Below are positions 11,606 to 49,395 of a stretch of 64,000 nt of DNA, in pieces. The stretch comes from Diospyros lotus (taxonomy: Eukaryota > Streptophyta > Magnoliopsida > Ericales > Ebenaceae): contig NC_068350.1 of the NCBI RefSeq assembly GCF_014633365.1, forward strand, positions 4,903,001 to 4,967,000. The letters are read 5' to 3'. Numbering within the stretch: position 1 is the first letter of the stretch; each line of letters starts with the position of its first letter. A model generated the notes under the pieces. It was not told the origin of the DNA. It did no database searches and saw only the letters and a program-made list of their open reading frames with translations. The translations under genes and the position numbers were made by a program.

Positions 11606-13916
11606 TCAGATTTTGGCTTCGTCTTCGGTCAATAATTCTGCTCGCCGCCTTGGAACTACTTTCAGCGGCAGCAGCTTCCTTAGTGTTATCCCCATCCTCT
11701 CCCTCATGTCCACACTTTCGACGCCGCCTGCGGCCTCCCAGTCAAAAAGGTGCAGCAAAGTGGCCAGCACGAGGAGAATCGTCCGATGAGCCAACGAGTA
11801 CCCGACGCAGATCCTTCTCCCTGCCCCGAACGGAAGCAGCTCGAAGTTCTGCCCCTTGTACTCGACGCTCGAGCCGATGAATCTCTCCGGCCGGAACGCC
11901 GAGGGCTCGGCCCAGGAATCTCCGTCCCTTCCGATGCCCCACACGTTGACGAGCACCTGCGTGTCCTTGGGAATGAAGTAGCCCATGAAATCTGTGTCTT
12001 TTACGGCGTTCCTCGGCACCAGCAGAGGAACTGCCGGGTGCAATCGCAGCGTTTCCTTTACCACCGCCTGCAAATACTGCAGCTCCTCCAGCTGCCCTTC
12101 TTCTACCTTGCTGCTTCTGCTTCTTCCGATGACTCGGTCCAGCTCTTCTTTCACCTTTCTCATTGAACTAGGGTTTTGCAGTAGCTCCGCCATTGCCCAT
12201 TCCGTGCTGCTGCTTGTTGTTTCTGATCCGGCAAAGAACATTTCCTGCATCATTTACCATTGTCAAAAATATATACATAAATAGTATATTTAGTATATGG
12301 TTAGATAATTAAGCTATCAAATTTATCTACTCTTTTATATAAAACTCAATTTGAGTATAAATAGAGGATAGAAATATGTATAATACATAAAATCCAATTA
12401 GAACTTTTTCTTAAATAAAGAGAGATTATTTTGTATTTTTTGAAGCACGATCGTAAATTTTGGATTAAAAATTTGCTGTTATGTGTTAATAATAATAATA
12501 AGATAAATATGTAAAGACATGCATCCTGGGTATTAATTACTTTTTTGGGTCAAAATAATATTTGCAGGTTATATAGGTTTACATTACAATTAACACTTAG
12601 TTTTAGCTCTGTTATTGAACACACATTAGTAATTTAATTAGGTAGCGTACGTACGTAGCCCATTTATTATATCTGTGTATGTGTTATAACTCGAAAATAT
12701 TTATCAAAATTTTAAGGTTTATTTTATTGTGTCTGCAAAATAATTATGTTTTATAATTAATTAATTAATTTCTCAGAGGAGAACCCATATCACAAATATT
12801 AATGGAGTGAATTTTGATTTGTTATCGTGAGGTGGTGAACAGATGTGTTAAATTGATGTCTTGTTTTCTTCTTCATTTTTGATTAGCATGCACTTACCAG
12901 TATGGCATTGATAGCTTTTGACTCCGGGACCGGCGGATCTTTGGCGTCGCCTTTCTGATTCAAGAGCACGTCCAGCAAGTCGTGTTCATCATTAATCTCT
13001 CTGCCCGATTTTTTCTCTTCAATCCTATCCTTCACGAATTTCTCCACGATCCTCCTGGCTCGCCCCATCTCTCTCACCATCTCTCTCTTCATTCCCGCCG
13101 GATCCAGCCGTCGGAGGAAGGGAAAATAATCAGCCAGATTCGCCTTCCCGCCCAGCTCCATCACGTTGTTCATGGCGTCGAAGAACTCGAACCCCTCTTC
13201 AGATTCCGAGCTCAAAACATCTCTGGAAAGCACCAGGTTGCCAACCAGGTTAAACAACGCGACGAAGAGCAGATGCCCGATGTCCACCTATTAATCCAAA
13301 CCATAATTACAATTTATCGATTCAAGTTGTTATAATATATTATGTTGTCTAGCAATAGACTATAGTTTTAGTTATCTCTTAATTAGATACACTTGACTTG
13401 AGAGTTTACCTCGCCTCCGTTTGCCGCCTCAATCCACTTCACCAAGTTATCGACACACTTCCTTCTCATGGCGGCGGTGTCATTTATCCTTTTGGCACTC
13501 AGAAACTCCGCCGAGTAGAGGCGGCGGAGCAGCCGCCAGTACGGGCTGTAACTGTTGAGAGACAAGCCTCCTTCGTGGTAGTTCCAGGCGGTGAGGGCGT
13601 CGGGGACCTTGCGATCGGGGAAATCGAGGTCGTGGTACTTGAACAACTCGGCGGCCGCCATGGCCGACTGCACCACGAGCGTGTTCATTGAGCCGAGCCG
13701 CAGCCAGATAACTGGGCCGTACTTGGTCCGGAGGCTGTGTAAGGTCTGGTGTGACATCGAGCCGAGGTCGAACATGTTTCCGAAGACCGGCCAACCCGGT
13801 GGTCCCGGGGGCGGCCGGCCGGTTCTGGTCTTTTTCCGGCTGATCAGAAGGAGGAGAGTGGCTGATAATAGAAAGACAGTAATAACAAACGTAACGTCTC
13901 CGAAAGTTGTCTCCAT
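11606..13916 (-). CDS. Cytochrome P450, CYP76A-like, copy A (three exons)
   Basis: Exons 13916-13410, 13287-12898 and 12244-11606 join in phase 0 at GT..AG introns of 122 and 653 bp to give 511 residues, normal for a class II plant P450. Visible in order: N-terminal membrane anchor (about 8-27), Pro-rich hinge PPPGPPGWPVFGN, I-helix AGSETT (about 304-309), ExxR as ETLR (363-366), PERF (418-421) and heme loop PFGAGRRICVG with Cys445. The sequence fits subfamily CYP76A best; relatives of the wider CYP76 family oxidise monoterpenols and other specialised metabolites at the ER, but the substrate here cannot be inferred. AATAAA-type signals lie about 60 bases past the stop. All key residues are present, so probably functional. 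Confidence 0.9.
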
Positions 13917-15238
13917 TTTCTTTCTTGCTCTGTGATTGTGTTTCGAACTAACATCTGATATATATATATAGGTGTGTGTATATATATGTATAGGACCATC
14001 AAAATAACTCTTTACCTTATACTGTTTTGCAGTTTTGATCTCCTGCCCGCGTCGGGCTTATCTAGCCCGACCGACGCGGACGTCTCTCACCCCTACCCCT
14101 TCCCCCCCCCCCCCCCCCCCCCCAATCTGGCTAGATAATTTAATAATTTTTAAAATATATAATTATAATATCTGTTAATATTATATTTTTATTTATAAAA
14201 TAATATTATAAATAAATTACAACTTAAATATATTTTATAAAAAAACAACTTTAATATATTGTCCATAATTGCTTATTATATTACACAATTTGAACGTGGA
14301 CAATGATTTATAACAAATGAACTATTACAAGAAATAATTGTTAAAATTCATATGAAAAATATTATAATTGTTATTGATAATATTGGTGAACCCATTATTC
14401 TGCATCCATCAAAAGAATATTGAGGATGATATGGATTATCCAACACATTTGACCTAAAAAGATTAGAAAAACTCCAAAGAACCAGTTGGGCAACTTGGGA
14501 ATGCTAGCTAGCTGTACCATGATGGTCCCTTATTTTTCAAGTATGAAGACAACGTTTGTATTTGCAAATCCATTATGCTCCAAATCATCATGTCGTATAT
14601 GGGCCAGCCGCCACCACCACCACCCCCCCATTGGTCACAGCTTGGTTCATCATTCTTTTCAATCGGTTTCAGAACTCATTTGACATAAAAGATTTGATGA
14701 TTTTTATAGTGGTTGTTGAACTTTTCTATCTTATTTTAACTTGGAATTGACAGGAATTACTCAATTCAAGCAGATTGCTTGCTGGAATGGGTAAAAAGTT
14801 TCGCCCATTATTATTATTATTATTATTATTACATGTAATTGCTTAGAATTTACTTGATAAAGTAGGAGAGAATTAAGTCCTGTAAAAATAACACTAGATT
14901 AGAATATAGTTGTAAATAATAATTTTAAAAAAATAAAAATAGTAAAATTAAATATATATAAATTTTACGTGACAAAATTCAAAATAAATCAAGATATTAA
15001 TTACATGTAAAGATGGTAGAATTTATTATAAAAAAATAATAAAAATTATAATATATTTTTTTAAAATTATAGAGAGATAACAATAATAGTTTTTTTTTTA
15101 AAATAAAAAAAATATTTCTAATATTTTTAACTTTTTAATTATTTTATCTGACAATAGTACACTGAAGTGATTAATAAATGTAAATGACTTTGCCTGACAA
15201 TAGAATAGAATAGTATACTGGAGTGATTAAAAATTTTA
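13917..15238. promoter_or_regulatory. Upstream region of P450 copy A with half of a foldback element
   Basis: The proximal promoter holds alternating TA stretches (about 13958-13990) 40-75 bases before the ATG. A 22-base C run at 14102-14123 and the following 350 bases to about 14475 match the left arm of the complete hairpin found upstream of copy C; the right arm is absent here. Beyond it the sequence is AT-rich and colinear with copy B to 15238. No gene seen. Confidence 0.6.
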
Positions 15239-23553: not shown

Positions 23554-24389
23554 TGTAATCTTCTTCACCGATAGAGACTTTGAAGGGATCGATCAAAACC
23601 TTGATGATCCCATTGTGGTCTCAGTCATTGTGACCAACTTCCTAGTGAAAAGAGTCCTTATTGATCAAGGGAGTTCGGTCAATTTGTTATATCTGCCAAT
23701 CTTAGGAAGCATGGGATCTCGGAAGAGGATCTGGAACCGTTCCCCAAAAATCTAATCAGCTTTTTCGGAGAGCAAGTTAGCTTCAGGGGGTACATTGATC
23801 TATTGACTTCATTTGGAACCCCCCATCATAAAAACAATCAGCATTTGATACTTGGTGGTTGACCGCCAAATGTCGTACAACACACTGCTCGGCCGCCTAT
23901 CTCTCAACGCTTTGGGTGCAGTTGTATAAACCCCCCATCTAGCCATAAAATTTTTGGTGTCAGCCACCTAGGTGGGAGTTATCCACGCCGACCAAAAGGA
24001 AACCAAACAATGTTACCGTGATAGTCTCAGGGCTCAAAGTTCCGAACCTAGCAAGGATGATGAAAGAAACCAGGCCTCCGATAGCGGTAACCAAACCACG
24101 GGTGTTAACGGCCAAGCCCCATGCTATAGCGTAAATACGACCAAATTGGACCCACGAGATGAACTCTCAGACAGTTGCCCTCAACCCACAGAAGAACTCC
24201 GCCATATGAGCTTGGTCCCCCGCCCAGAACAAATTGTCCACATTGGTTCTGTTGTTATCAAAATACAACAATTAAAATTTGTGATGTGGGGTCCACTCGG
24301 GCTCGATGTCGGGTGAAGTTAGGTTGCCGTAAGAGGTGTTGCTTCAAGGGAGATTGCCGTCAGGATGCTCGCCGCAAGGATCGGCCGCT

Positions 24390-24800
24390 AGTTCTCACCA
24401 CGAGGTCTTGCCATTAGCTTTCGCCACTAGCTCTCTCCACGAGGTCTTGCCACTAGCTTTCGCTGCTAGCTCTCGTCACAAGGTCTTGCCACTAGCTCTT
24501 GCCACAAGGTCTCGCCACTAGCTCTTGCACTAGTTTTAGCCACTAGCTCTTGCCACTAGGTTTCGCCACTAGCTTCCGCCACTAGCTCTTGCCACTAGGT
24601 CTTGCCACTAGTTTTCGCCACTAGCTTCCGCCACTAGCTCTTGCCACTAGGTCTTGCCATTAGCTTCCGCCACTAGCTCTTGCCATTAGGTCTTGCCACT
24701 ATCTTTTGCCACTAGCTCTTGCCACTAGCTTTCGCCACTAGCTTTCACCATTAGCTCTTGCCACAAGGTCTGGCCACTAGCTTTGCTGCTAGCTTTGCCA
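24390..24800. repeat. Short tandem repeat field based on GCCACTAGCTCTT
   Basis: About 400 bases of variants of CGCCACTAGCTCTTGCCAC and TTGCCACTAGGTC, repeated some twenty times with phase slips. It lies wholly within the 1138-bp solo LTR. Confidence 0.85.
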
Positions 24801-25119
24801 CGAGCTTCGCTGCAAGACTTTTTCCCTCGCCGCAAGGATTCAGCCCTATTAATGTTGAGAAAATGGGTTAGAAGGCTCGCGGGAATCTTCCCCGCGAAGA
24901 CCCTCCGATGCCAAAGTCAGTCCCGGATCCCAATGACTATTCACGAAAATAATAAAAGTGTATTCAAAGTGTCCAGATTTTACCAAAGTTGGCGGTCCTC
25001 ATTAATGTCCTGTAGCTTGGTATTTATAGGGCATGATTCTCAAGAGTGGCTGGTGTTGACACGTGGCGTTTGATAGATGCGGACAACTTCAACGAAGAAA
25101 GGGGATCACCACGAACCTG

Positions 25120-26163: not shown

Positions 26164-28320
26164 TGACTGCACTCTCACCCTACAATTAAAACACAATAAA
26201 AACAAATCATAATAAAACTTTTATATATTTTTTATTTTAGTGAGAGGTTTATACTCGCCAGTGTACGAGTGCAGTTGTAGTCCAAATTTAAATTTATATT
26301 TTCTGGATGAATCCAGGTCGTCCACTGAGAGATTTATTTATGGCAAAAGAAAAAGAATGTCACACACACGCACACGCATTTGGACAAATTGACAACAAGA
26401 TTTTTTATGGTTTTGTTTTTAGACAACAGATACTAGAAAATAAAGTAAGGCAGAAATTGAAATAAACATTAAACGTAAAAATATGAATTTGGATAGTGCT
26501 TGAGTTAAGACAATTTCAGTACCAACCCGTTGATTCCCAAATTTTAGCATAAAAGATTAGCAACATTAATTTAATTTCAGATATGAGGGTTTGTTATTAA
26601 ATGCAATTAGAGATGATAATAGTTTTAGGTTAAGCAATCCCCATACATGATATGCGGGATTCTAATTTAAGCAACTACCATAAATCCAATTACAATTAAT
26701 ATACAAAACAACTAAATTAATCATCCGGGTTTGGGTATGATAGCGTTTCTAGTTCTAGTAACTCTCATACATGGCATGAAAGCTCTAAGTTAGGCTTACG
26801 CTCCAATTCAAACCTAGTGATTTTTCAATAATTAATACACACTCATACTGAAATTTAAATTAATGTTACTTATTTAAAGCGCAGCTTTCTTTAGGAATCA
26901 TTGGCGTTGGACACTGTCCTTGCCTTAACCCAAGATTAGATTTAGCTACTCATATTTATTTGAAAGTTAATTGATAGGAATTTAAATGACGTAATTTAAA
27001 TAACAGAATTTAAACGACAAGAATTAAAATAGTAAAAACTAACCGGCCATTTAGGCGGTGGATAATTAAAAGACAAGAATTAAAATTACAGAAATTTAAA
27101 GGCATAAACTAACCGGCCATTTAGGCGGTGAATAATTAAAAGACAAGAATTAAAATTGCAGGAATTTAAAGGCATAAATTAACCTACCATTTAGGCGGTG
27201 AATAATTAAAAGACAATAAATGACATAAGAATTTAAAAGAAGAAAAAAAAGAAGTAAGATTATAAGAGAAAGTACTAAAGAAAATGAGAAAAAACAAGAA
27301 CAATTCTCAAAGAGAGAATTATAAGGAAACAACTAAACTTTTATTCAAGAATAATAATCACACTTACAAATGCAATCAAGTGATCTATTTATAGGCCACA
27401 AGATACAATACAAACTACACAATTTCAATTATTCAACTAGACATAATTATATCTAATGGGCACTCACACACTTAAAGTTAAATGGATTTTAGCTATAATA
27501 CACACCTAATATTAAATGGATTTTAGCTAAAATACATATCTAATAAAGCACTCATAAAGTTAAATGGATTTTAGCTATAATATCCACCTAATAGTTAAAT
27601 GGATTTTAGCTAAAAAACACACCTAATAAAGCTCTCACATAAAAAATAAAAATAGATTTCTATAAATTGGTTTTTAATCTTCATTAGGATTAAAAATAAT
27701 CCTTGGGCCTTCTCCAAATAATATCTTCCATGGGTTACTCAAATTGGACCTTAATTCTTCATGGGCTTGAATTCTTTATGGACTTTAATTTTTCATGGGC
27801 TTGATTTCTTCATGGGTTTGATTTCTTCATGGATTTGAATTCTTCATGGACTTTAATTTTTCATGGGCTTGATTTCTTCATGGGTTTGATTTCTTCATGG
27901 ATTTGAATTCTTCATGGACTTTAAGTCTTCATGGGCTTGAATTCTTCATGTCTAAAAAAAAAATAATTTAATGTTATTAATAAATTATATATTATATATA
28001 TGTATTACACATGACACACATATATATATATAAATTAGATTATATTATATATATATATATATTACATGCATGCATATAATGATGTATATGTATTATATAT
28101 AATTTTATATATTATTATTATTATTATTATTAAATTTTACTTTAAAATTTCATTTCATTCATTTTTCAATTTAAACTTGCATATAACCATAAAATATATA
28201 TTAATACCTAATTTAAGCCATTTTTAAGATCAAAAAAGGGTATAATTATAACAAAATTTTTACAAAATTAACCACTAATCATAACCCCCAACTTAAACAT
28301 TACTAGTCCCTTAGCAATCA
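26164..28320 (-). repeat. 3' LTR of the LOG-carrying element
   Basis: 2157 bp, TGACTGC...GCAATCA. Contains three tandem units of about 72 bp with CCATTTAGGCGGTG (27040-27230), a field of TTAAATGGATTTTAGCT units (27475-27625), and TTCATGGGCTTGA/TTCATGGATTTGAA repeats (27745-27950). Confidence 0.9.
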
Positions 28321-30108
28321 GACTATACACCTGCCAAACTTTATTCACAATAACTGTATGAATGTAAGAATTTCAAATTTGAAACCAAAATGCATAAAAT
28401 CGAATAAATAATTTAGCATTCTAAATCAGAATTTTGGTTAAAGGTCATGCAATCTCAGGAATAGCAATTAGGATAACCAACACACAGACTTACTCCCTCG
28501 AAGTTTTGACTTCAAATCTCACTATAGATTTTCTCTCCAATAAAAAGGATTCCTCAGGTGTACACAGAAGGGGGTGCACCGTTATAAGAGTAAATGCAGA
28601 ACAAGTTCAAAACTAGGTGTCATCCCAAATACAAGGAACGTATTTTCATGAAAGAACAGGAAAATTGACATAGCTTCATGATTGGAATAATGCTCTAGAT
28701 GAGTAACTTCTGAATTTAAACATGATTCCCTACTCCAAACTCGAATTCTGAGATCACATGATTTATAGCATCAACAGGGACCAGACTGGGTTGTAATGGG
28801 GCTATAAGGTTAATACGGGTTGTCAAAGAAAGGGTAGAGTGTGTAAATGGTGTGTCGGGATTTTTTTTTTTTTTTTAGCATTTATTTTGAAACAGTTATG
28901 CTGAATAGCTAAAAGAATTTGCCTCCTTTTTTCACTTTTTTTTTCTTTTTCTTTTTCTCTTTAAATATGAAAATAGATAAACAGACTAATTCCCAAAATC
29001 ACACCAAGTTGGATAAAATTCATATGGTTATGGGTTAAACGAGGGTAATGAAAGAAATTATACTACAAATGGCTCAAATGGGATAGCAAATGAGGTTAAT
29101 TTAAAGAAAGAAAAAGTTAGTAGGCCCAAAATGAAAGAAATTGATCCCCTATCATGCTTCTCAGTCATCTAATTCGGAGTTTGAAACCAGTCAAATTCAT
29201 CCGCTATCAAACTAGACATTCAAAGAGAATTGATATTTTGAAGGCATTGAAAAGATAAGATAAACAAGAGAGCATATTTAGAGTAAGTGTTATTTCACTC
29301 AAAATTAACGGTTATTAGGCTCAAACACTCACTTGGGTAATAGTCTCCACTTTTGTTGAGGGATCATACAGTGTACTAATCAGCTAATTACTGTTACCTT
29401 TGACTTTATGACCGATAAACAATTTTTAAATTTTGAATCCCCGATGAATGCAAATTACTTATTCTAATACATATACGTTTTCAAATAAGAAATCAATGCA
29501 TTCATGTTTCGTATTGCAAACTTAGCCAGCTATCAGTGCATACCTCCCAAGCTTTAGGAATAGCGTTATTTAAGACACATGGTTTTTTTTTTTTTTTTAA
29601 ATAAGAGCAAATAAAGATAATCAATTCACACAAGACTACAAACTAGCAATAGCAAACTCACAGTTAAATATGAACCAGATAATTCATAACTAGACCTTAC
29701 ACCCCCCAACCTGAATTGCAGTAATAAAATAGAGTTGTTAGAAATACCTGTAACTCCACAAGTCCATAGATTTACTGTGAACTGCTAAAACTCAAACAAA
29801 CAAATGAGCATATCATATAGATACATATTTATATTTTCACACCAAAATAAAAAGTTTATGCAAGTCATAAGATAAGCAAAATGCGTCTCAAGAGTACAAA
29901 AAGTACTCCTTACTCAGCCATCTTATCAAAGACTTTGCTAATAACATTCCACAGTTTTGGTTTTTTTTTTTTTTTTCTCTTTTTTTTATTTATTATTATT
30001 TTTTTTAGAACACACCCAAGAAAAATCCTGCAAGTTGTACAATAATTAGATGCGTCTCAAGAGTACAAAAAGTACTCCTTACTCAGCCATCTTAATAAAG
30101 AGCACTCC
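28321..30108 (-). other. Non-coding internal region of the LOG-carrying element
   Basis: No supported frame. Holds poly-T runs at 28861-28876, 29583-29599 and about 29961-30007 (poly-A on the element's sense strand). It also holds an exact 45-base direct repeat (29881-29925 and 30050-30094). Confidence 0.6.
29881..30094 (-). repeat. Exact 45-base direct repeat with hairpin, bracketing a poly-A-like tract
   Basis: Bases 29881-29925 and 30050-30094 are identical. Each contains AGTACAAAAAGTACT, a five-pair hairpin. The two blocks ATGCGTCTCAAGAGT and ACTCCTTACTCAG also occur in the same order, with a different middle, inside the 181-residue frame at about 31086-31132. On the minus strand the A-rich tract lies between the repeats, just past the LOG stop. 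Confidence 0.8.
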
Positions 30109-30768
30109 TCACAGTGATAAATCTAAATTAATCGGACCTTTTTTGTGCTTGTTACTGATTGCCTTAGACCAGTCTATCCGAGGCTCATAAGGATCGTGCT
30201 GTGGAACATAAGCGTATAATTTCTCTAGCAGCTCATCAATAGAGGATGCAGAAATGAGAATCTTTCTTGCTGAAAGAGAAATGAACTTTTGCTCCACAGC
30301 CTGATCAAGAAAAGAGAGCAACCCATCGAAAAAATGGTTAACATTTAAAAGTCCAATGGGTTTGGTATGGAGATTACTCTTGGCCCAGGAGATTATAAAA
30401 AAGATTTCTTCAAGTGTTCCAAAACCTCCTGGTAAAGCAATGAAGGTATCTGACTGATAAATCTTACAAGCCATGCGCTCAGACATAGAAGTCGTTTCTA
30501 TAAGTCGACCACGTGTAATCTCGAAAATCTGTGGTTCAGCTAAAGGGATTGGCATTACACCTACCACAGATGATTTTCTAAGATGTACAGCTTGTGAAAC
30601 ATAACCATTCAATCCACGACTTCCCTCTCCATATACCAAGTTAATTTTTTTCTCTCCCAATTTTTGGCCAAGTTCGCTCGCTGCAAGTGCGTAACAAATA
30701 TCGCTCCCAAGTTGAGAGCCACAAAGTACACATATGGTATTGATTCGACGAACTAACTGGCCTTCCAT
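30109..30768 (-). CDS. LOG-family cytokinin riboside 5'-monophosphate phosphoribohydrolase-like protein (retrotransposon cargo)
   Basis: Uninterrupted 219-residue frame, start ATG in good context (AACATGG). It shows the Rossmann-like LOG fold signatures: ICVLCGS (12-18), LVYGEGSRGLNG (44-55), SERM with Arg98, and the family motif PGGFGTLEE (113-121), followed by HTKPIGLLNV. The family releases active cytokinin bases from their nucleotides in the cytosol and nucleus. Departures from typical plant LOGs: the usual GGGS is GEGS, and the RKAEM block after the catalytic Arg is altered, so activity is uncertain. Plant LOG genes normally have several introns; this one has none, suggesting an RNA-derived copy. 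It lies inside an LTR element, 167 bases after a zinc-cluster frame on the same strand. Confidence 0.85.
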   Translation of the reverse strand: MEGQLVRRINTICVLCGSQLGSDICYALAASELGQKLGEKKINLVYGEGSRGLNGYVSQAVHLRKSSVVGVMPIPLAEPQIFEITRGRLIETTSMSERMACKIYQSDTFIALPGGFGTLEEIFFIISWAKSNLHTKPIGLLNVNHFFDGLLSFLDQAVEQKFISLSARKILISASSIDELLEKLYAYVPQHDPYEPRIDWSKAISNKHKKGPINLDLSL

Positions 30769-30935
30769 GTTTGTTCCTTTTGTATGTCCTGAAAAGAAGT
30801 TTGGAGATCAAAAGTAGCTATACAACAATTCAACAAGAAATAAATACAAACAAAAATCATGCGTATGTATAAGTAGTTGTGATTGTGGCTCACATCTTTC
30901 TCTGGTTTTACGTCCAGAAACGGCTTAAACACTTT

Positions 30936-31481
30936 CTAAGAAGCGAGGATAAGCTTCCCATCCAATTTTCTTATAGATTGACAAACATGGTCGTTTTTAG
31001 TCAGATTCCCAAGACTATAGCGTTGGTGGTCATTTCTGAACTGGGTCCATAAAGCAAGAAGTTCTCTTTGCACTATTCCACATGGATGCGTTTCAAGAGT
31101 CAATCGGATATCATCTAAAGACTCCTTACTCAGTCCATCCTTTATGAAACTAATTTTATCATCTCGATTTATGGACGTAAACCCCACAGATTTGCATCGT
31201 GTGTTACAGGTCCATCGAGCACATTTATAACAACCATTCACTCTTTTCGTTCTTCTTTTCTTCGCAAAACTACTCTTCCCTAAGCCTGGAAAATGCTTAA
31301 AACTAGGTGAAGTTTCACCAGCTAATCGAACTTTTGCTTCGATCAGCCAACAAATATCTTCAGGGATGTTATTACGCATCAACAGCCTAAGTCTTTCACA
31401 CCTAGCAGCATAAATTTTTTTCAAATCAATCTGCGGGAGAGATGGATAGTACTTGTGAATTTTTGAGAGATAAAGATCCAT
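30936..31481 (-). CDS. Zinc-cluster basic protein, resembling small nucleic-acid-binding proteins of plant RNA viruses
   Basis: Uninterrupted 181-residue frame. A helical N-terminal part (IPEDICWLIEAKVRL, 39-53) leads into GKSSFAKKRRTKR (68-80), then Cys84, Cys87, Cys92 and Cys96 (C-x2-C-x4-C-x3-C), then DDKISFIKDGL. The order helical segment, Gly-x-Ser-x-x-Ala plus Arg/Lys patch, Cys cluster is what I know from the small nucleic-acid-binding proteins of carlaviruses, vitiviruses and allexiviruses, some of which suppress silencing. The C-terminal 60 residues are unlike anything I recall. Alternative: an uncharacterised host zinc-binding protein captured by the element. The frame is intact while the neighbouring gag is broken. 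Assignment to the viral family is an inference from motif layout only. Confidence 0.5.
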   Translation of the reverse strand: MDLYLSKIHKYYPSLPQIDLKKIYAARCERLRLLMRNNIPEDICWLIEAKVRLAGETSPSFKHFPGLGKSSFAKKRRTKRVNGCYKCARWTCNTRCKSVGFTSINRDDKISFIKDGLSKESLDDIRLTLETHPCGIVQRELLALWTQFRNDHQRYSLGNLTKNDHVCQSIRKLDGKLILAS

Positions 31482-32224
31482 TTTTTTTTAAAAAAAAAAA
31501 ATTATACTAAGAAGAAAGTAAAGAACTATAAACTTTACAAAAGGGATGAGAGTACCTGATCAGAGAATAACACAAAGGAGAGAAGATTGAGCTCAAGAGG
31601 GGTGACTTGCCTCATACAGATATGGAGTCTCTTATAGAGCAATGGGCATCACTATTCTACACTCGACTCGAGGCATGCCATAATTGCACCGTCAGACTTG
31701 ACGTCGTTTAGCGTCTCATTTTTCAACATTTGGCAGTGTGCCTTTTTTTTTCAACGCTCGGCGCCTCTGTTTTCAACATTTGGCAGTGTGCCTTCTTTCT
31801 TTATAGGGTAGTGTGATTACACTGCCCAAGAAAAGATGGCTACCACCAGCGTCAATTCTGTCTCTCTCAATTCAAATTTTTTTTAATTAATTTTGTTTTA
31901 TTTTTTATTTTTTTTTAGGTAAAATTTTTTAGACACCTTACCCCCTAACTTAAATTGCGCATTGTCCTCAATTGGCAATAAAAGGATAGAAGATAGGCAT
32001 ACCTGGCGGTCTTCAATACATAAACTCGTATGTAGAAATTTTATTTAGACTCCACATAGAGAAACACTAGTTAAGTAATGCAGAAAAGGAACAATTTATA
32101 TGTATATATAAAATTATTTTATTATATATTTTTATTTATTTTTTTTAGAATTTTTTTTTTCTTTTCTTCCAATTAAGGATCAAATGAGTGGTTGCCCACC
32201 TAATCGTATAATATCTCCCATTCA
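31482..32224 (-). other. Spacer between gag remnants and the zinc-cluster frame
   Basis: About 740 bases without a supported frame. It has short A/T homopolymers next to the start of the zinc-cluster frame (31482-31500) and a duplicated phrase TTTCAACATTTGGCAGTGTGCC at 31722-31743 and 31771-31792, flanking a TTTTTT run. Confidence 0.5.
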
Positions 32225-33505
32225 TTACACCACTTTTAAAGTTATTTGAAAATTATATAAATTGATTTTTCTCATGAATGCACATACATATTTTGAAAAT
32301 ATATCGTCCGGAGGTGTTGGTTTTATTATATCCGCGTATGGCACATTAATTTGCACAAACATCTCACACGTGTTTGATTTAATTTGATCCTCAATAATAT
32401 CGACTAACCTAAAAGATAGAAATTGAGGGGTAAATGTGGATAAACTTATGATTTTTTCATAATTTGGCTCTCGAATTTTATCCTCTTCTTCCTCCCAGGT
32501 TTTTTCTTTTCTTACATCATTTTGGTCTTTTTCTTCCTCCAAGGCTTCATTGACATCTACCTCACTGTGATCAACCACTCTCTCTTCTTGCACCAAAGGG
32601 TGTACTGTCCTAGGGGCATCAAGTTTCTCAATTCCTTAAGACAGTCACTCCTATGTCCTGCTCCTGACTTTCACTTTTGATGATGGGTTTGATTAATGGG
32701 ATTTGGAGTGAGTTGGGATGGACAAGCTCCGATATGCTCAAAGTCTGTGTTAGCTGTGTCAATTGGTTCCTAATGTCCTCTGTAACTCTAATGGTATGTT
32801 CTTGACATTTGGACATTTGTGTAAAAATTTCCATTTGGCCTTGCATAAATAGATTGAAGGTATCTTCTAATGAACTCCCATGAGGGGGTTGATATGCATC
32901 GAATGTAGACCCTTCATTCGTTTGAAATGATTGAGGCTGGGAAAGGAAGTGCTCATGTGGTTGGACTACAAAATCATTTTTCCATGAGAAATTTGGATAA
33001 AAGTGTGAATTAGGGTGATATGCATCAAAGTCCGAATGATTGTTTTCCTCATGATTCTGGTAATACATTCCCTCATAGTTGTGTGTGTGTGTAACTGGAC
33101 TGACCATACAATACCTCCTTAAAAGTAGGTATTATAGGGCAGTCATCTGTTAAATGAGCTGAAGTCTCACACACAGCACACCAAACCTCAATTTCATGGT
33201 AAGTGGGTAACAAATGGGTAGTATCTGGTTGTAAATCAAAAGTGGTTTGCCTAAGAGGGTATAGATAATCCTTAAGAGGTCTAGACAAATCGGATTCAAA
33301 ATGATAATTTTCATCATGATAAGTATCTTGTGCAGACAGATTGTAGTAATTTTGAGACATGAGTGTAAAGTTGACAATCCAATTGCAGGTAAAGACTTAG
33401 AATGATATGAAAATACTGTTTCAAAATTCTACCTGATCTCAGTTTCATATACAATACACAAACAAAAATAAAGTAAAAGAGAAATAGATTTACCGATTTT
33501 ATCAA
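32225..33505 (-). pseudogene. Broken gag of the LOG-carrying element
   Basis: Three overlapping frames (33360-33073, 33107-32628, 32596-32225) together resemble the C-terminal half of an Athila/Tat-like gag. The first has a CCHC zinc knuckle (Cys61, Cys64, His69, Cys74: C-x2-C-x4-H-x4-C), the second has PNFSWKN and a helical region, the third an acidic stretch then a segment with INVPYADIIK. The first break falls exactly in a CA/GT dinucleotide run (33081-33093), so a slippage frameshift is likely. The second is a separate frameshift near 32630. Gag binds element RNA and forms particles; here it cannot be made whole. Confidence 0.6.
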
Positions 33506-33564
33506 GAGATGCTTATTCTTTTATTTTTTATTTATTTATTTTTTTTCTTTTTGTTTTTGCCTTA

Positions 33565-33590
33565 ATCTTCCCGGCAACGGCTCCAAAATT
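33565..33590 (-). other. Primer-binding site of the LOG-carrying element
   Basis: Immediately inside the right-hand LTR, read on the minus strand as TTTTGGAGCCGTTGCCGGG. This is close to the primer site of Athila/Tat-type gypsy elements (complementary to the 3' end of a tRNA, tRNA-Asp as I recall). It fixes the element's orientation as minus. Confidence 0.7.
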
Positions 33591-35734
33591 TGATTGCACT
33601 CACCCTGCAATTAAAACACAATAAAAACAAATCATAATAAAACTTTTATATTTTTTTTATTTTAGTGAGAGGTTTATACTCGCCAGTGTACGAGTGCAGT
33701 TGTAGTCCAAATTTAAATTTATATTTTCTGGATGAATCCAGGTCGTCCACTAAGAGATTTATTTATGGCAAAAGAAAAAGAATGTCACACACACGCACAC
33801 GCATTTGGACAAATTGACAACAAGATTTTTTATGGTTTTGTTTTTAGACAACAGATACTAGAAAATAAAGTAAGGCAGAAATTGAAATAAACATTAAACG
33901 TAAAAATATGAATTTGGATAGTGCTTGAGTTAAGACAATTTCAGTACCAACCCGTTGATTCCCAAATTTTATCATAAAAGATTAGCAATATTAATTTAAT
34001 TTCAGATATGAGGGTTTGTTATTAAATGCAATTAGAGATGATAATAGTTCTAGGTTAAGCAATCCCCATACATGATATGCGGGACTCTAATTTAAGCAAC
34101 TACCATAAATCCAATTACAATTAATATACAAAACAACTAAATTAATCATCCGAGTTTGGGTATGATAGCGTTTCCAGTTCTAGTAACTCTCATACATGGC
34201 ATGAAAGCTCTAAGTTAGACTTACGCTCCAATCCAAACCTAGTGATTTTTCAATAATTAATACACACTCATACTGAAATTTAAATTAATGTTACTTATTT
34301 AAAGTGCAGCTTTCTTTAGGAATCATTGGCGTTGGACACTGTCCTTGTCTTAACCCAAGATTATATTTAGCTACTCATCTTTATTTGAAAGTTAATTGAC
34401 AGGAATTTAAATGACGTAATTTAAATAACAGAATTTAAATGACAGGAATTAAAATAGTAAAAACTAACCGGCCATTTAGGCGGTGGATAATTAAAAGACA
34501 AGAATTAAAATTACAGAAATTTAAAGGCATAAACTAACCGGCCATTTAGGCGGTGAATAATTAAAAGATAAGAATTAAAATTGCAGGAATTTAAAGGCAT
34601 AAATTAACCGGCCATTTAGGCGGTGAATAATTAAAAGACAATAAATGACATAAGAATTTAAAAGAAGAAAAAAAAAAAGTAAGATTATAAGAGAAAGTAC
34701 TAAAGAAAATGAGAAAGAATAAGAACAATTCTCAAAGAGAGAATTATAAGGAAACAACTAAACTTTTATTCAAGAATAATAATCACACTTACAAATGCAA
34801 TCAAGTGATCTATTTATAGGCCACAAGATGTAATACAAACCACACAATTTCAATTATTCAACTAGACATAATTATATCTAATAGGCACTCACACACTTAA
34901 AGTTAAATAGATTTTAGCTATAATACACACGTAATATTAAATGGATTTTAACTAAAATACATACCTAATAAAACACTCATAAAGTTAAATAGATTTTAGC
35001 TATAATATCCACCTAATAGTTAAATGGATTTTAGCTAAAAAACACACCTAATAAAGCTCTCACATAAAAAATAAAAATATATTTCTATAAATTGGTTTTT
35101 AATCTTCATTAGGATTAAAAATAATCCTTGGGCCTTCTCCAAATAATATCTTCCATGGGTTGCTCAAATTGGGCCTTAATTCTTCATGGGCTTGAATTCT
35201 TTATGGGTTTGATTTCTTTATGGGTTTGATTTCTTCATGGGTTTGATTTCTTCATGGATTTGAATTCTTCATGAACTTTAATTTTTCATGGGCTTGATTT
35301 CTTCATGAGTTTGATTTCTTCATGGATTTGAATTCTTCATGGACTTTAAGTCTTCATGGGCTTGAATTCTTCATGCCAAAAAAAAATAATAATTTAATAT
35401 TATTAATAAATTATATATTATATATATGTATTACACATGGCACATATATATATTAGATTATATTATATATATATATATTACATGCATGCATATAATGATG
35501 TATATGTATTATATATAATTTTATATATTATTATTATTATTATTAAATTTTACTTTAAAATTTCATTTCATTCATTTTTCAATTTAAACTTGCATATAAT
35601 CATAAAATATATATTAATACCTAATTTAAGCCATTTTTAAGATCAAAAGAAGGGTATAATTATAACAAAATTTTTACAAAATTAACCACTAATCATAACC
35701 CCCAACTTAAACATTGCTAGTCCCTTAGCAATCA
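33591..35734 (-). repeat. 5' LTR of the LOG-carrying element
   Basis: 2144 bp, TGATTGC...GCAATCA, colinear with the LTR at 26164-28320 and carrying the same three internal repeat fields (34465-34640, 34900-35040, 35170-35375). The primer site adjoins its left edge. Confidence 0.9.
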
Positions 35735-39380: not shown

Positions 39381-41624
39381 TCAGATTTTGGCTTCGTCTT
39401 CGGTCAATAATTCTGCTCGCCGCCTTGGAACTACTTTCAGCGGCACCAGCTTCCGTAGTGTTATCCCCATCCTCTCCCTCATGTCCACACTTTCGGCGCC
39501 GCCTGCGGCCTCCCAGTCAAAAAGGTGCAGCAAAGTGGCCAGCACGAGGAGAATCGTCCGATGAGCCAACGAGTACCCGACGCAGATCCTTCTCCCTGCC
39601 CCGAACGGAAGCAGCTCGAAGTTCTGCCCCTTGTACTCGACGCTCGAGCCGATGAATCTCTCCGGCCGGAACGCCGAGGGCTCGTCCCAGGAATCTCCGT
39701 CCCTTCCGATGCCCCACACATTGACGAGCACCTGCGTGTCCTTGGGAATGAAGTAGCCCATGAAATCTGTGTCTTTTACGGCGTTCCTCGGAAGCAGCAG
39801 AGGAACTGCCGGGTGCAATCGCAGCGTTTCCTTTACCACCGCCTGCAAATACTGCAGCTCCTCCAGCTGCCCTTCTTCTACCTTGCTGCTGCTGCTGCTT
39901 CTTCCGATGACTCGGTCCAGCTCTGCTTTCACCTTTCTCATTGAACTAGGGTTTTGTAGTAGCTCCGCCATTGCCCATTCCGTGCTGCTGCTTGTTGTTT
40001 CTGATCCGGCAAAGAACATTTCCTGCATCATTTACCATTGTCAATATATATATATATATATAGTATATTTAGTATATGCTTAGATAATTAAGCTATCAAA
40101 TTTATCTACTCTTTTATATAAAACCCAATTTGAGCATAAATAGAGGATCGAAATATGTATAATACATAAAATCCAATTAAAAATTTGCTGTTATGTGTTA
40201 ATAATAATAATAATAAGATAAATATGTAAAGACATGCATCCTGTGTATTACTTTTTTGGGTCAAAATAATATTTGCAGGTTATATAGGTTTACATTACAA
40301 TTAACACTTAGTTTTAGCTCTGTTATTGAACACACATTAGTAATTTAATTAGGTAGCGTACGTAGCCCATTTATTATATCTGTGTATGTGTTATAACTCG
40401 GTAATATTTATCAAAATTTTAAGGTTTATTTTTATTGTGTCTGCAAAATAATTATGTTTTATAATTAATTAATTAATTTCTCAGAGGAGAACCCATATCA
40501 CAAATATTAATGGAGTGAATTTTGATTTGTTATCGTGAGGTGGTGAACAGATGTGTTAAATTGATGTCTTGTTTTCTTCTTCATTTTTGATTAGCATGGA
40601 CTTACCAGCACGGCATTGATAGCTTTTGACTCCGGGACCGGCGGATCTTTGGCGTCCCCTTTCTGATTCAAGAGCACGTCCAGCAAGTCGTGTTCATCAT
40701 TAATCTCTCTGCCCGATTTTTTCTCTTCAATCCTATCCTTCACGAATTTCTCCACGATCCTCCTGGCTCGCCCCATCTCTCTCACCATCTCTCTCTTCAT
40801 TCCCGCCGGATCCAGCCGTCGGAGGAAGGGAAAATAATCAGCCAGATTCGCCTTCCCGCCCAGCTCCATCACGTTGTTCATGGCGTCGAAGAACTCGAAC
40901 CCCTCTTCAGATTCCGAGCTCAAAACATCTCTGGAAAGCACCAGGTTGCCAACCAGGTTAAACGACGCGACGAAGAGCAGATGCCCGATGTCCACCTATT
41001 AATCCAAACCATAATTAGAATTTATCGATTCAAGTTGTTATAATATATTATGTTGTCTAGCAATAGACTATAGTTTTAGTTATCTCTTAATTAGATACAC
41101 TTGACTTGAGAGTTTACCTCGCCTCCGTTTGCCGCCTCAATCCACTTCACCAAGTTATCGACACACTTCCTTCTCATGGCGGCGGTGTCATTTATCCTTT
41201 TGGCACTCAGAAACTCCGCCGAGTAGAGGCGGCGGAGCAGCCGCCAGTACGGGCTGTAACTGTTGAGAGACAAGCCTCCTTCGTGGTAGTTCCAGGCGGT
41301 GAGGGCGTCGGGGACCTTGCGATCGGGGAAATCGAGGTCGTGGTACTTGAACAACTCGGCGGCCGCCATGGCCGACTGCACCACGAGCGTGTTCATTGAG
41401 CCGAGCCGCAGCCAGATAACTGGGCCGTACTTGGTCCGGAGGCTGTGTAAGGTCTGGTGTGACATCGAGCCGAGGTCGAACATGTTTCCGAAGACCGGCC
41501 AACCCGGTGGTCCCGGGGGCGGCCGGCCGGTTCTGGTCTTTTTCCGGCTGATCAGAAGGAGGAGAGTGGCTGATAATAGAAAGACAGTAATAACAAACGT
41601 AACGTCTCCGAAAGTTATCTCCAT
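39381..41624 (-). CDS. Cytochrome P450, CYP76A-like, copy B (three exons)
   Basis: Exons 41624-41118, 40995-40606 and 40022-39381 splice in phase 0 to 512 residues. The protein is nearly identical to copy A: one extra Ser in the linker before KVEEGQ, and scattered changes such as Met-Glu-Ile for Met-Glu-Thr at the start. All P450 signatures are intact: Pro-rich hinge, AGSETT, ETLR, PERF, and PFGAGRRICVG with the heme-ligand Cys at 446. Introns are the same as in A with small indels. The very high identity, introns included, points to a recent duplication or gene conversion. Substrate unknown; likely functional. Confidence 0.9.
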
Positions 41625-43075
41625 TTTCTTTCTTGCTCTGTGATTGTGTTTCGAACTAACATCTGATATATATATATGTGTATATATATGTATAGGACCA
41701 TCAAAATAACTCTTTACCTTATACTGTTTTGCAGTTTTGATCTCCTGCCCGCGTCGGGCTTATCTAGCCCGACCGACGCGGACGTCTCTCACCCCTATCC
41801 CTTCCCCCCCCCCCCCCCCCCCCCAATCTGGCTAGATAATTTAATAATTTTTAAAATATATAATTATAATATCTGTTAATATTATATTTTTATTTATTAA
41901 ATAATATTATAAATAAATTACAACTTAAATATATTTTATAAAAAAACAACTTTAATATATTGTCCATAATTGCTTATATTACACAATTTGAACGTGGACA
42001 ATGATTTATTACAAATGAACTATTACAAGAAATAATTGTTAAAATTTATATAAAAAATATTATAATTGTTATTGATAATATTCGTGAACCCATTATTCTG
42101 CATCCATCAAAAGAATATTGAGGATGATATGGATTATCCAACACATTTGTCCTAAAAAGATTAGAAAAACTCCAAAGAACCAGTTGGGCAACTTGGGAAT
42201 GCTAGCTAGCTGTACCATGATGGTCCCTTATTTTTCAAGTATGAAGACAACGTTTGTATTTGCAAATCCATTATGCTCCAAATCATCATGCCATATATAT
42301 GGGCCAGCGCCACCCCCCCCATTGGTCACAGCTTGGTTCATCATTCTTTTCAATTTTATCTGGCATTTTAGCTAACTCTAATTTAAAATCTCTGTCTCAA
42401 TCGGTTTCAGAACTCATTAAACATAAAAGATTTGATGATTTTTATAGTAGTTGTTGAACTTTTCCATCTTATTTTAACTTGGAATTAACAGGAATTACTC
42501 AATTCAAGCAGATTGCTTGCTGGAATGGGTAAAAGTTTCACCCATTATTATTATTATTATTACATGTAATTGCTTAGAATTTACTTGATAAAGTAGGAGA
42601 GAATTAAGTCCTGTAAAAATAACACTAGATTAGAATATAGTTGTAATTAATAATTTTTAAAAAATAATAACAATAAAATTAAACATATAGATTTTAAGTG
42701 AAAAATTTTAAAATAAATCAAGATATAAATTACATGTAAAGATAGAAGATTTTATTATAAAAAAATAAAAATTATAATATTTTTTTAAATTATAGAGAGA
42801 TAACAATAATAGTTTTTTTTTTAAAATATTTTTAACTTTTTAATTATTTTATCTGACAATAGTACACTGAAGTGATTAATAAATGTAAATGACCTTTGCC
42901 TGACAATAGAATAGTACACTGGAGTGATTAAAAATTTTAATTATTACAGCTACCAGCTTCTTTTAACTTCTTCTGGCTGCTAAGTTCCTTCCAACTTCTT
43001 CTTTCCTTTTTTTCTTATCCTTTTTGTTCAATTTTTCCTTATTAATAATTTTAATGCAGCACATTTTTTACTTTT
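41625..43075. promoter_or_regulatory. Upstream region of P450 copy B
   Basis: TA-rich proximal promoter (about 41665-41690), a 21-base C run at 41804-41824 and the left foldback arm to about 42175, as in copy A. Then AT-rich sequence including the empty site for A's MITE near 42935. No gene. Confidence 0.55.
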
Positions 43076-44333: not shown

Positions 44334-44603
44334 GAGCACACTAATATATAGCACCCATTCTCCCCTTCACCCCTGCAAGCACCCATCCCACCTTGGGTAG
44401 CGTCCTTCGCCCCTTTTGATAAAGTCCATTCCTACAAAGTAAAATTAAAAATATTATTTTATTAAAATTTTTAAAAATAATTTTTTTAATAAAAATTTAA
44501 AATTACCAAAAAATTATAATTTGTCAAAAGTTAAATACTACTAATTATTATTTTATTATTGTATTTGACAAAATTGTGTAATTACATCTCATATTATACT
44601 TCT
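43850..44603. other. Gene-free AT-rich spacer
   Basis: Contains an ATT microsatellite (about 44301-44332) and otherwise only low-complexity AT-rich DNA. Nothing else seen. Confidence 0.5.
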
Positions 44604-45668
44604 CCATCTGTGACCGACGTTGCGTGACCCTCACTAAAGGTTGCACATTCAATGACGACCATATGGGGTCATCACTGTTGTACCTCCATATGTGACCAAC
44701 GTTGCGTGACCCTCACTAAACGTTACACATTATGTGACGACTGTATGGGATCGTCACTAATGCTCCCCCCATCTGTAATCGACGTTGCACGACACTCACT
44801 AATGGTTAAACATTCAATTATGACCATATACGGTCGTCACTAATGCTCCCCCATCTATGACCGACGTTGTGCGACCCTCACTAAAGTTGGACATTCAGTG
44901 ATGACCACATGTGGTTGTCACTATCGTGCCGCCATCTGTGACCAACAATGTGCGACCCTCACTAAAGGTTGCAAATTCAGTGATGACTATATGGGGTTGT
45001 CACTATTATGTTGTCATGTGTGACCAACGTTGCGCGACCCTCACTGCAGATTCAGTGATGACCATATGGGGTCATCACCAATGCTCCCCCTATTTGTGAC
45101 CGACGTTGCGCGACCCTCACTAATGGTTAAACATTCAGTGATGACCATAAGCGGTCGTCACTATTGCCCCCCCTTCTGTCAATCAATGTTGCGCGACCCT
45201 CACTAAAGGTTGCACATTCAGTGACGACCACATATGGTCGTCACTATTGTGCCGCCATCCGTGACCAACGTTGCACGACCCTCATTAAAGGTTGCACATT
45301 CAGTGACGACCATATGTGGTCGTCACTAATGCTCCCCCATCTGTGACCGACGTTGTGCGACCTTTACTAATGGTTAAACATTCAGTGATGACCATATGTA
45401 GTCATCACTAATGCTCCCCTATCTGTGATCGACGTTGAGCGACCCTCACTAAAGGTTGCACATGACTACCCCACGAGATCGTCACTATTGTGTCTCCATC
45501 TGTGACCAACGTTGCGCTATCCTCACTAAAGGTTGCACATTATGATCGTCCCTATTGCCCACCATATGTGATGGATTCCATCTGACCATTATTAAAGATT
45601 GAAATTAGTAACGACTTTTGATTGATCCTCGCTAAATGTGATTACTAAAAGTGTAATTTCTGGTAGTG
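44604..45668. mobile_element. CACTA-type transposon end with about 83-bp tandem repeats
   Basis: About a dozen units of roughly 83 bp, each with ATCTGTGACCGACGTTGCGC, a CCTCACTAAAGG segment and an inner GACGACCATATGTGGTCGTC palindrome. The right edge is TGTAATTTCTGGTAGTG (45652-45668). Its complement CACTACCAGAAATTACA is a classical CACTA terminal sequence, and the P450 copy C flank resumes directly after it. No opposite terminus or transposase was found, so this is a truncated or non-autonomous element. Frames in the array are repeat artefacts. Confidence 0.7.
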
Positions 45669-47656: not shown

Positions 47657-49292
47657 TAGATAGTATATTTAGTATATGGTTAGATAATTAAGTTGTCAAA
47701 TTTATCTACTCTTTTATATAAAACTCAATTTGAGTATAAATAGAGGATAGAAATATGTATAATAGATAAAATCCAATTAGAACTTTTTCATAAAGAAAGA
47801 AAGATTATTTTGTATTATTTGAAACATGATCGTAAATTTTGGATTAAAAATTTGCTGTTATGTGTTAATAATAATAATAAGATAAATATGTAAAGACATG
47901 CATCCTGGGTATTAATTACTTTTTTGGGTCAAAATAATATTTGCAGGTTATAGGTTTACATTACAACTAACACTTAGTTTTAGCTCTGTCGTTGAACACA
48001 CATTAGTAATTTAATTAGGTAGCGTACGTAGCCCATTTATTATATCTGTGTATGTGTTATAACTCGATAATATTTATCAAAATTTTAAGGTTTATTTTTA
48101 TTTTGTCTGCAAAATAATTATGTTTTATAATTAATTAATTAATTTCTCAGAGGAGAACCCATATCACAAATATTAATGGAGTGAATTTTGATTTGTTATC
48201 GTGAGGTGGTGAACAGATGTGTTAAATTGATGTCTTGTTTTCTTCTTCATTTTTGATTAGCATGGACTTACCAGCACGGCATTGATAGCTTTTGACTCCG
48301 GGACCGGCGGATCTTTGGCGTCCCCTTTCTGATTCAAGAGCACGTCCAGCAAGTCGTGTTCATCATTATTCTCTCTGCCCGATTTTTTCTCTTCAATCCT
48401 ATCCTTCACGAATTTCTCCACGATCCTCCTGGCTCGCCCCATCTCTCTCTTCATTCCTGCCGGATCCAGCCGCCGGAGGAAGGGAAAATAATCAGCCAGA
48501 TTCGCCTTCCCGCTCAGCTCCCTCACGTTGTTCATGGCGTCGAAGAACTCGAACCCCTCTTCAGATTCCGAGCTCAAAACATCTCTGGAAAGCACCAGGT
48601 TGCCAACCAGGTTAAACGACGCGACGAAGAGCAGATGCCCGATGTCCACCTATTAATCCAAACCATAATTAGAATTTATCGATTCAAGTTGTTATAATAT
48701 ATATATATATATATTATATTGTCTAGTTATAGACTATATATAGTTTTAATTAGTTATCTCTTAGATACACTTGACTTGAGTTTACCTCGCCTCCGTTTTC
48801 CGCCTCAATCCACTTCACCAAGTTATCGACACACTTCCTTCTCATGGCGGCGGTGTCATTTATCCTTTTGGCACTCAGAAACTCCGCCGAGTAGAGGCGG
48901 CGGAGCATCCGCCAGTACGGGCTGTAACTGTTGAGAGACAAGCCGCCTTCGTGGTAGTTCCAGGCGGTGAGGGCGTCGGGGACCTTGCGATCGGGGAAAT
49001 CGAGGTCGTGGTACTTGAACAACTCGGCGGCCGCCATGGCCGACTGCACCACGAGCGTGTTCATTGAGCCGAGCCGCAGCCAGATAACTGGGCCGTACTT
49101 GGTCCGGAGGCTGTGTAAGGTCTGGTGTGACATCGAGCCGAGGTCGAACATGTTTCCGAAGACCGGCCAACCCGGTGGTCCCGGGGGCCGCCGGCTGGTT
49201 CTGGTCTTTTTCCGGCTGATCAGAAGGAGGAGAGTGGCTGATAGTAGAAAGACAATAAAAAGAAACGTAAGGTCTCCGAAAGTTGTCTCCAT

Positions 49293-49395
49293 TTTCTTTC
49301 TTGCTCTGTGATCGTGTTTCAAAACAACATCTGATATATATATATATATATATAGGACTATCATAATAACTCTTTACGTTATAATATCTGATTTT
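49293..49395 (-). promoter_or_regulatory. Proximal promoter of P450 copy C
   Basis: Alternating TA run (about 49333-49353) 40-60 bases upstream of the ATG, as in copies A and B, but the sequence beyond it differs and leads almost at once into the foldback element. Confidence 0.4.

Follow-up and report, generated by a model that had tools for sequence, protein, structure and literature searches.

A pol-less Athila-like retrotransposon of Diospyros lotus and its probable accessory pair of NABP-like and LOG-derived frames

In Arabidopsis, pol is found in only four of the eleven Athila families defined by gag, and purifying selection acts on the gag and env frames in the copies without pol (PMC2410132). 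These copies have long terminal repeats (LTRs) and gag, lack pol, often keep a 3' frame (env), and have insertion ages of 0.07-2.4 million years (My) (PMC2410132). An element that resembles them in structure and age lies on the minus strand at 26164-35734 of the window, the 64,000-nucleotide stretch of Diospyros lotus DNA analysed here. In contrast to Arabidopsis Athila, the slot after pol of this 9.6-kb element holds two frames, one NABP-like and one LOG-like, and its gag is shortened and distributed among several frames. We consider it fairly probable that the element is a young pol-less copy of an Athila-like LTR lineage, and that the NABP-like and LOG-derived frames are an accessory pair, a module of its active relatives. 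The two proteins of this module are probably nuclear.

The gain of enzyme domains by Ty3/gypsy elements has been described before. A YgdH/LOG domain was found inside Ty3/gypsy elements of Citrus, and also of Populus without the n5 filter (PMC9289625), as is the case here. LOG cargo in Gypsy elements is thus already published. Nevertheless, the section of that paper dealing with these elements says nothing of an NABP-like partner, a tail of the basic-LxLxL type or an altered pocket. A further case of an enzyme domain gained by Gypsy comes from orchids, where Ty3/gypsy elements carry an m6A RNA demethylase domain (PMC9289625), but the enzyme is another one, and in that screen it was found in two Phalaenopsis species only. 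In the flexivirus cysteine-rich/NABP proteins (PF05515, PF01623), a cysteine cluster comes after a basic stretch (PMC12172455), as in the NABP-like proteins considered here. In contrast, the latter are encoded by plant-type DNA next to an integrase, are usually 182 amino acids (aa) long and have a conserved C-terminal part. The NABP-like partner frame, the LxLxL tail and the changed pocket of the LOG relatives appear to be new. Two Athila-like elements with similarity to LOGL4 were reportedly noticed by Steinbauerova et al. in 2011. Among the top-ranked open-licence papers of PubMed Central (PMC), judged by titles and the beginnings of abstracts, none dealt with NABP-type proteins of LTR elements or with LOGs bearing an EAR tail. 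A large survey of 2019 scored extra frames of at least 250 codons only (PMC6317226), which may explain why a frame of 182 codons was overlooked.

The element was recognised in a first-pass annotation by its paired LTRs of about 2.15 kb, a primer site, a broken gag, the absence of pol and two uninterrupted frames on the same strand, and all of these were recovered. The 5' LTR (33591..35734, minus strand) measures 2144 bp and the 3' LTR, in the sense of the element, 2157 bp (26164..28320, minus strand). They agree at 2080 of 2133 aligned bases (97.5%) and differ by 43 transitions, 10 transversions and 5 gap runs. The Kimura two-parameter divergence of 0.025 corresponds to an insertion about 1.0 or 1.8 My ago, at assumed rates of 1.3e-8 or 7e-9, respectively. 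The LTR ends are TG...CA and the primer binding site (33568..33585, minus strand), 5 bases from the 5' LTR, starts with TGG, both as expected of the Athila lineage; the site is presumably of the tRNA-Asp type. The gag remnant is truncated and split over three minus-strand frames (33073..33360, 32628..33107 and 32225..32596), each in another reading frame. The first contains a CCHC zinc knuckle (C-x2-C-x4-H-x4-C), and the other two are assigned by position. None of the three matches a gag family of Pfam at E<=1, and the gag label rests on the knuckle, the position and a general resemblance. As for pol, no such frame of at least 80 aa is present among the listed open reading frames. The integrase of L001, a related contig described below, gave no tblastn match in 28321-33590 at E<=0.01, a decayed reverse transcriptase not having been searched for with a reference.

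The LOG-like frame (30109-30768, 219 aa) and the NABP-like frame (30936-31481, 181 aa) both lie open on the minus strand and are separated by 167 bp. No second copy of either was found in the window. Many full-length homologues of both exist, with relatives of each in several flowering plants, and chance frames are ruled out. No catalogued RNA family matched the interval 28300-33620 at E<=0.5, and this candidate was also discarded.

The protein of the NABP-like frame carries a basic stretch and a cysteine cluster. The earlier description of a small cysteine-cluster protein of plant-RNA-virus type agrees with its match to Pfam Viral_NABP (31.5 bits, gathering cut-off 23). A protein search yielded 361 of 426 candidates at E<=1, and the best 120 all had E<=5.3e-59; the named sources among these 120 (Populus, Orobanche, Acer, Xanthoceras and Rhamnella) are all plants. 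In an alignment of 90 of the best 120 proteins with the window protein (91 rows), the length is 182 aa in 63 proteins, and the four clustered cysteines are retained in 83, 88, 90 and 86 rows. At E<=0.01, Viral_NABP matches 81 and Carla_C4 80 of the 91 proteins, next to weak matches to the unrelated models SHQ1 (four proteins), C6_DPF (one) and AAA_18 (one). By its sequence, the frame is a member of a large plant family that matches the Pfam model of flexivirus nucleic-acid-binding proteins. It is not carried by a flexivirus, since it lies inside LTRs in the window and next to an integrase frame in L001. An origin from bacteria, plasmids or viral contigs was rejected as well: no plasmid match was obtained, and viral contigs gave no confirmed relative with either the single protein or the alignment as query.

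The position of the NABP-like frame relative to pol is seen in its sole genome-contig match, the 3330-bp contig DAIEQH010000041.1 (L001). This contig is filed under a Nomurabacteria genome, but reads as plant retroelement DNA, probably a contamination of the bacterial record. An integrase frame (Pfam rve core and H2C2) ends at 1594, and the NABP-like frame starts on the same strand at 1799, or at 1787 if an earlier in-frame ATG is used. The gap between them is 204 bp (192 bp to the earlier ATG). The NABP-like frame therefore belongs to the slot after pol. We read the cargo of the window element as occupying this slot and not the place of pol. The proposal that pol was replaced by cargo is not supported; pol is simply missing, as in seven of the eleven Arabidopsis families (PMC2410132). 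The pairing of the two genes is not peculiar to the window copy. Indeed, three of the best 120 NABP-like proteins (P0041, P0070 and P0088, all from Orobanche gracilis) contain NABP and then LOG in one predicted protein, in the same order as here. Equal contig sizes among the NABP-like and LOG matches (e.g., 8723) hinted at pairs on a shared contig, but these were not counted, since some of the coinciding sizes (905 and 734) are too small for the two complete frames. The most parsimonious history, which rests on one contig, has NABP acquired first and LOG later. A conserved purine-rich block (31931..31972, minus strand) is common to the window element and L001 (2577-2618). It precedes the NABP-like frame in the window and follows it in L001, and the module order has therefore been shuffled.

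The LOG-like frame codes for a member of the LOG family. Its product matches PF03641 with 109.6 bits and has the PGGxGTxxE motif with the catalytic Arg and Glu. An alignment of the family comprises the window protein and 32 of the 120 listed relatives. The best solved relatives are 2a33 and 1ydh, named AtLOG3 and AtLOG8 in PMC4979012. Among the matches listed, the closest relative is a Diospyros lotus protein with 88% identity; a relative from Diospyros lotus carries the gene annotation LOGL10. The 120 listed relatives were compared with ordinary LOGs, represented by the 120 nearest plant matches to AtLOG3; the tree and the residue counts used the 111 relatives and 114 ordinary LOGs with a length of 195-260. 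In the tree, the relatives and the window protein form one group of 112 with a support of 1.0, which is not proof of a single origin, as only LOGs near AtLOG3 were compared.

The tail and the pocket distinguish this group from ordinary LOGs. A basic cluster is present in the last 26 residues of 111 of the 120 listed relatives and of one of the 120 ordinary LOGs. An LxLxL motif occurs in the last 14 residues of 89 of the 120 relatives, in contrast to none of the ordinary LOGs; among 120 listed NABP-like proteins it was found there in two. After thinning at about 70% identity, 19 of 26 representatives retain the motif, compared with 1.7% of shuffled proteins. The window protein has a C-terminal LDLSL and so carries an EAR-repressor motif, of which there are two types, LxLxL and DLNxxP (PMC6479872). 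Effectors of several plant pathogens have been reported to use EAR motifs or TOPLESS. With residue roles taken from PMC4979012, the catalytic Arg is retained in 107 and the Glu in 108 of 111 relatives. The pocket Lys and Glu are invariant among the ordinary LOGs (114 of 114 each), but only 10 and 9 of the 111 relatives, respectively, retain them (a cruder, motif-based count for Lys gave 14 of 109). Within the side-chain pocket for cytokinin (Met, His, Lys, Glu, Trp), the window protein keeps Met and Trp, while His is replaced by Ser, Lys by Met and Glu by Phe. It also keeps the phosphate-binding serine, the first serine of CGSS (row S18). The pocket of a mycobacterial LOG differs too (PMC4979012). 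Hence, membership in the LOG fold family stands, the substrate is in doubt, and cytokinin activity may persist. The earlier identification as a LOG enzyme was correct with regard to the family, but the cytokinin activation attached to it is doubtful because of the changed pocket.

Selection and drift have to be considered separately for the family and for this copy. For the NABP-like frame, comparison of the window with L001 gave a nonsynonymous divergence (dN) of 0.25, a synonymous divergence (dS) of 0.95 and a ratio of 0.26 (Nei-Gojobori script, one pair), which supports purifying selection along the lineages. The ratio covers the NABP-like frame alone. In the window copy, the chance that both frames stayed open by drift since insertion is about 0.15, rising to 0.61 when indels are disregarded. 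Private changes of this copy fall on conserved columns in two of seven cases in the NABP-like frame (40% of columns conserved) and in three of eight in the LOG-like frame (30%). Pooled, these are 5 of 15, where 5.2 are expected without constraint, compared with 5 of 57 in the nearest relatives (Fisher one-sided p 0.028, with small numbers). The counts leave out E159E (window) and L69L (P0124), which are script artefacts. In view of the drift probability and of these private changes, the open frames are a weak argument for selection on the window copy, which is probably drifting; selection on the family is supported for the NABP-like frame by the ratio.

If the pair is an accessory module, active relatives would supply gag, the enzymes and both accessory proteins and would move pol-less copies in trans, as the Athila precedent suggests. 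Both accessory proteins would enter the nucleus. RNA-silencing suppression, nuclear signals and nucleic-acid binding have been described for the viral relatives of the NABP-like protein, and one carlavirus protein of this type is a transcription factor causing hyperplasia (PMC12172455). By analogy, the NABP-like protein may bind nucleic acid and counter RNA silencing or alter host transcription. The LOG-like protein may still cleave a nucleoside monophosphate, although its substrate may differ from the common precursor of cytokinin. Its basic-LxLxL tail could direct it to the nucleus and recruit TOPLESS-type co-repressors. The likeliest joint effect would be weakened silencing or a shift in host transcription, which would render the cell more permissive for the element.

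More tentatively, and with less than even confidence, a widespread lineage of plant retrotransposons may carry a host-reprogramming pair, composed of a nuclear protein that shares ancestry with the silencing suppressors of flexiviruses and a nuclear, TOPLESS-recruiting LOG with a new nucleotide substrate. Athila-type retroelements and flexiviruses would then be linked by the exchange of an accessory gene, and the LOG-like protein would be, to our knowledge, the first case of a retrotransposon encoding an EAR-type repressor.

If the pair is an accessory module as proposed, these retrotransposons code for proteins aimed at the nuclear regulation of the host, by means of a hormone enzyme with a repressor-type tail and of a protein type known otherwise from RNA viruses of plants. 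The role of the extra frames of Athila-type elements becomes directly testable.

Other explanations of the pair were considered. Fragments of a host LOG gene and of an endogenised virus gene could have been gained by template switching, be copied along with the element and be of no use to it. The window copy shows no sign of constraint, its gag is broken, the order of modules is shuffled relative to L001, and Athila elements are known to recombine (PMC2410132), all of which would suit such passenger cargo. In contrast, the dN/dS of 0.26, the cysteines retained in 83 to 90 of the 91 NABP-like rows, the catalytic residues retained in all but a few LOG relatives, the conserved tail and the same frame order in Orobanche are not what useless cargo would leave, and we regard this explanation as unlikely. 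The first-pass annotation had favoured a growth-related cassette. In an explanation of this kind, the LOG would raise active cytokinin and keep meristem cells dividing, so that the element reaches the germ line, and the NABP-like protein would be a growth-promoting transcription factor. The retained catalytic residues and the hyperplasia caused by the carlavirus protein (PMC12172455) speak for it. Nonetheless, the pocket Lys is changed in 101 and the pocket Glu in 102 of the 111 rows, and the added basic-LxLxL tail is given no role. Plain cytokinin boosting is possible, yet it fits the changed pocket less well, and we give it a low probability.

That one or both frames have become plant genes and merely lie in an element remnant here is highly improbable. 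The LOGL10 annotation of the Diospyros lotus relative and the gene models of Orobanche would agree with host domestication, but intact young LTRs surround the pair, an integrase adjoins the NABP-like frame in L001, and some clusters are large (e.g., 566 and 328 members) and look repeat-like.

Several observations weigh against the interpretation as an accessory module of an Athila-like lineage. No target-site duplication was found, the flanks being GGGAT and GACGA. Such duplications are 5 bp long in most plant LTR elements and do not separate Athila from other lineages. A weak RVT_1 match on the plus strand of the left flank (E 8.8e-6, 26 bits, under the Pfam cut-off of 29.6) points to another element, within or next to which the present one is situated, and a flank may be rearranged. 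The lineage can be called Athila-like only, as no reverse transcriptase by which to place it was found in the window element and the L001 integrase is identified by its Pfam domains. The window NABP-like protein fails the Carla_C4 cut-off (18.6 against 20.9 bits). By tblastn at E<=0.01, no LOG was found in L001, and the NABP/LOG pair is thus not universal. For most LOG relatives, a location in retroelements is presumed. The tail as scored lacks LxLxL in 31 of the 120 listed relatives, some of them truncated or fused models. LxLxL occurs elsewhere than at the C-terminus in six of the 120 ordinary LOGs, and some of the ordinary models are long isoforms with odd C-termini. Finally, the window LOG is off-consensus at 12 of the 65 conserved columns of the family, a number that none of 28 comparison members reaches. 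Most of these departures, which include Gly to Glu in the YGGGS loop, are common to its nearest relatives. Function may be shifted or failing in this subgroup, and this copy may be inactive.

Further conserved or repeated sequences accompany the two frames. A non-coding block directly after the NABP-like stop (30871..30935, minus strand) is shared with L001 (2348-2412), with 57 of 65 bases the same; it is well kept although the two elements have strongly diverged. An RNA structure in this block was not convincing (z -2.5 in the window, -0.8 in L001), and its 23-base core had no exact match in viral contigs. Downstream of the LOG stop, two fragments of NABP-like coding sequence were found on the minus strand (30050..30101 and 29881..29932, 96% identical), with alignment scores of 44-52, where 300 shuffles of each reached at most 28.8. 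They share one internal deletion and a hairpin, GAGTAC-AAAAA-GTACTC.

Outside the element, frames resembling cytochrome P450, named by eye, lie on the minus strand at 11606-14057, 39381-41759 and 48750-49373. They belong to duplicated blocks, 90-97% alike, on either side of the element. Tandem arrays are present at 24330-24813, with a 13-nt unit, and at 44596-45541, with a spacing of about 80 nt.

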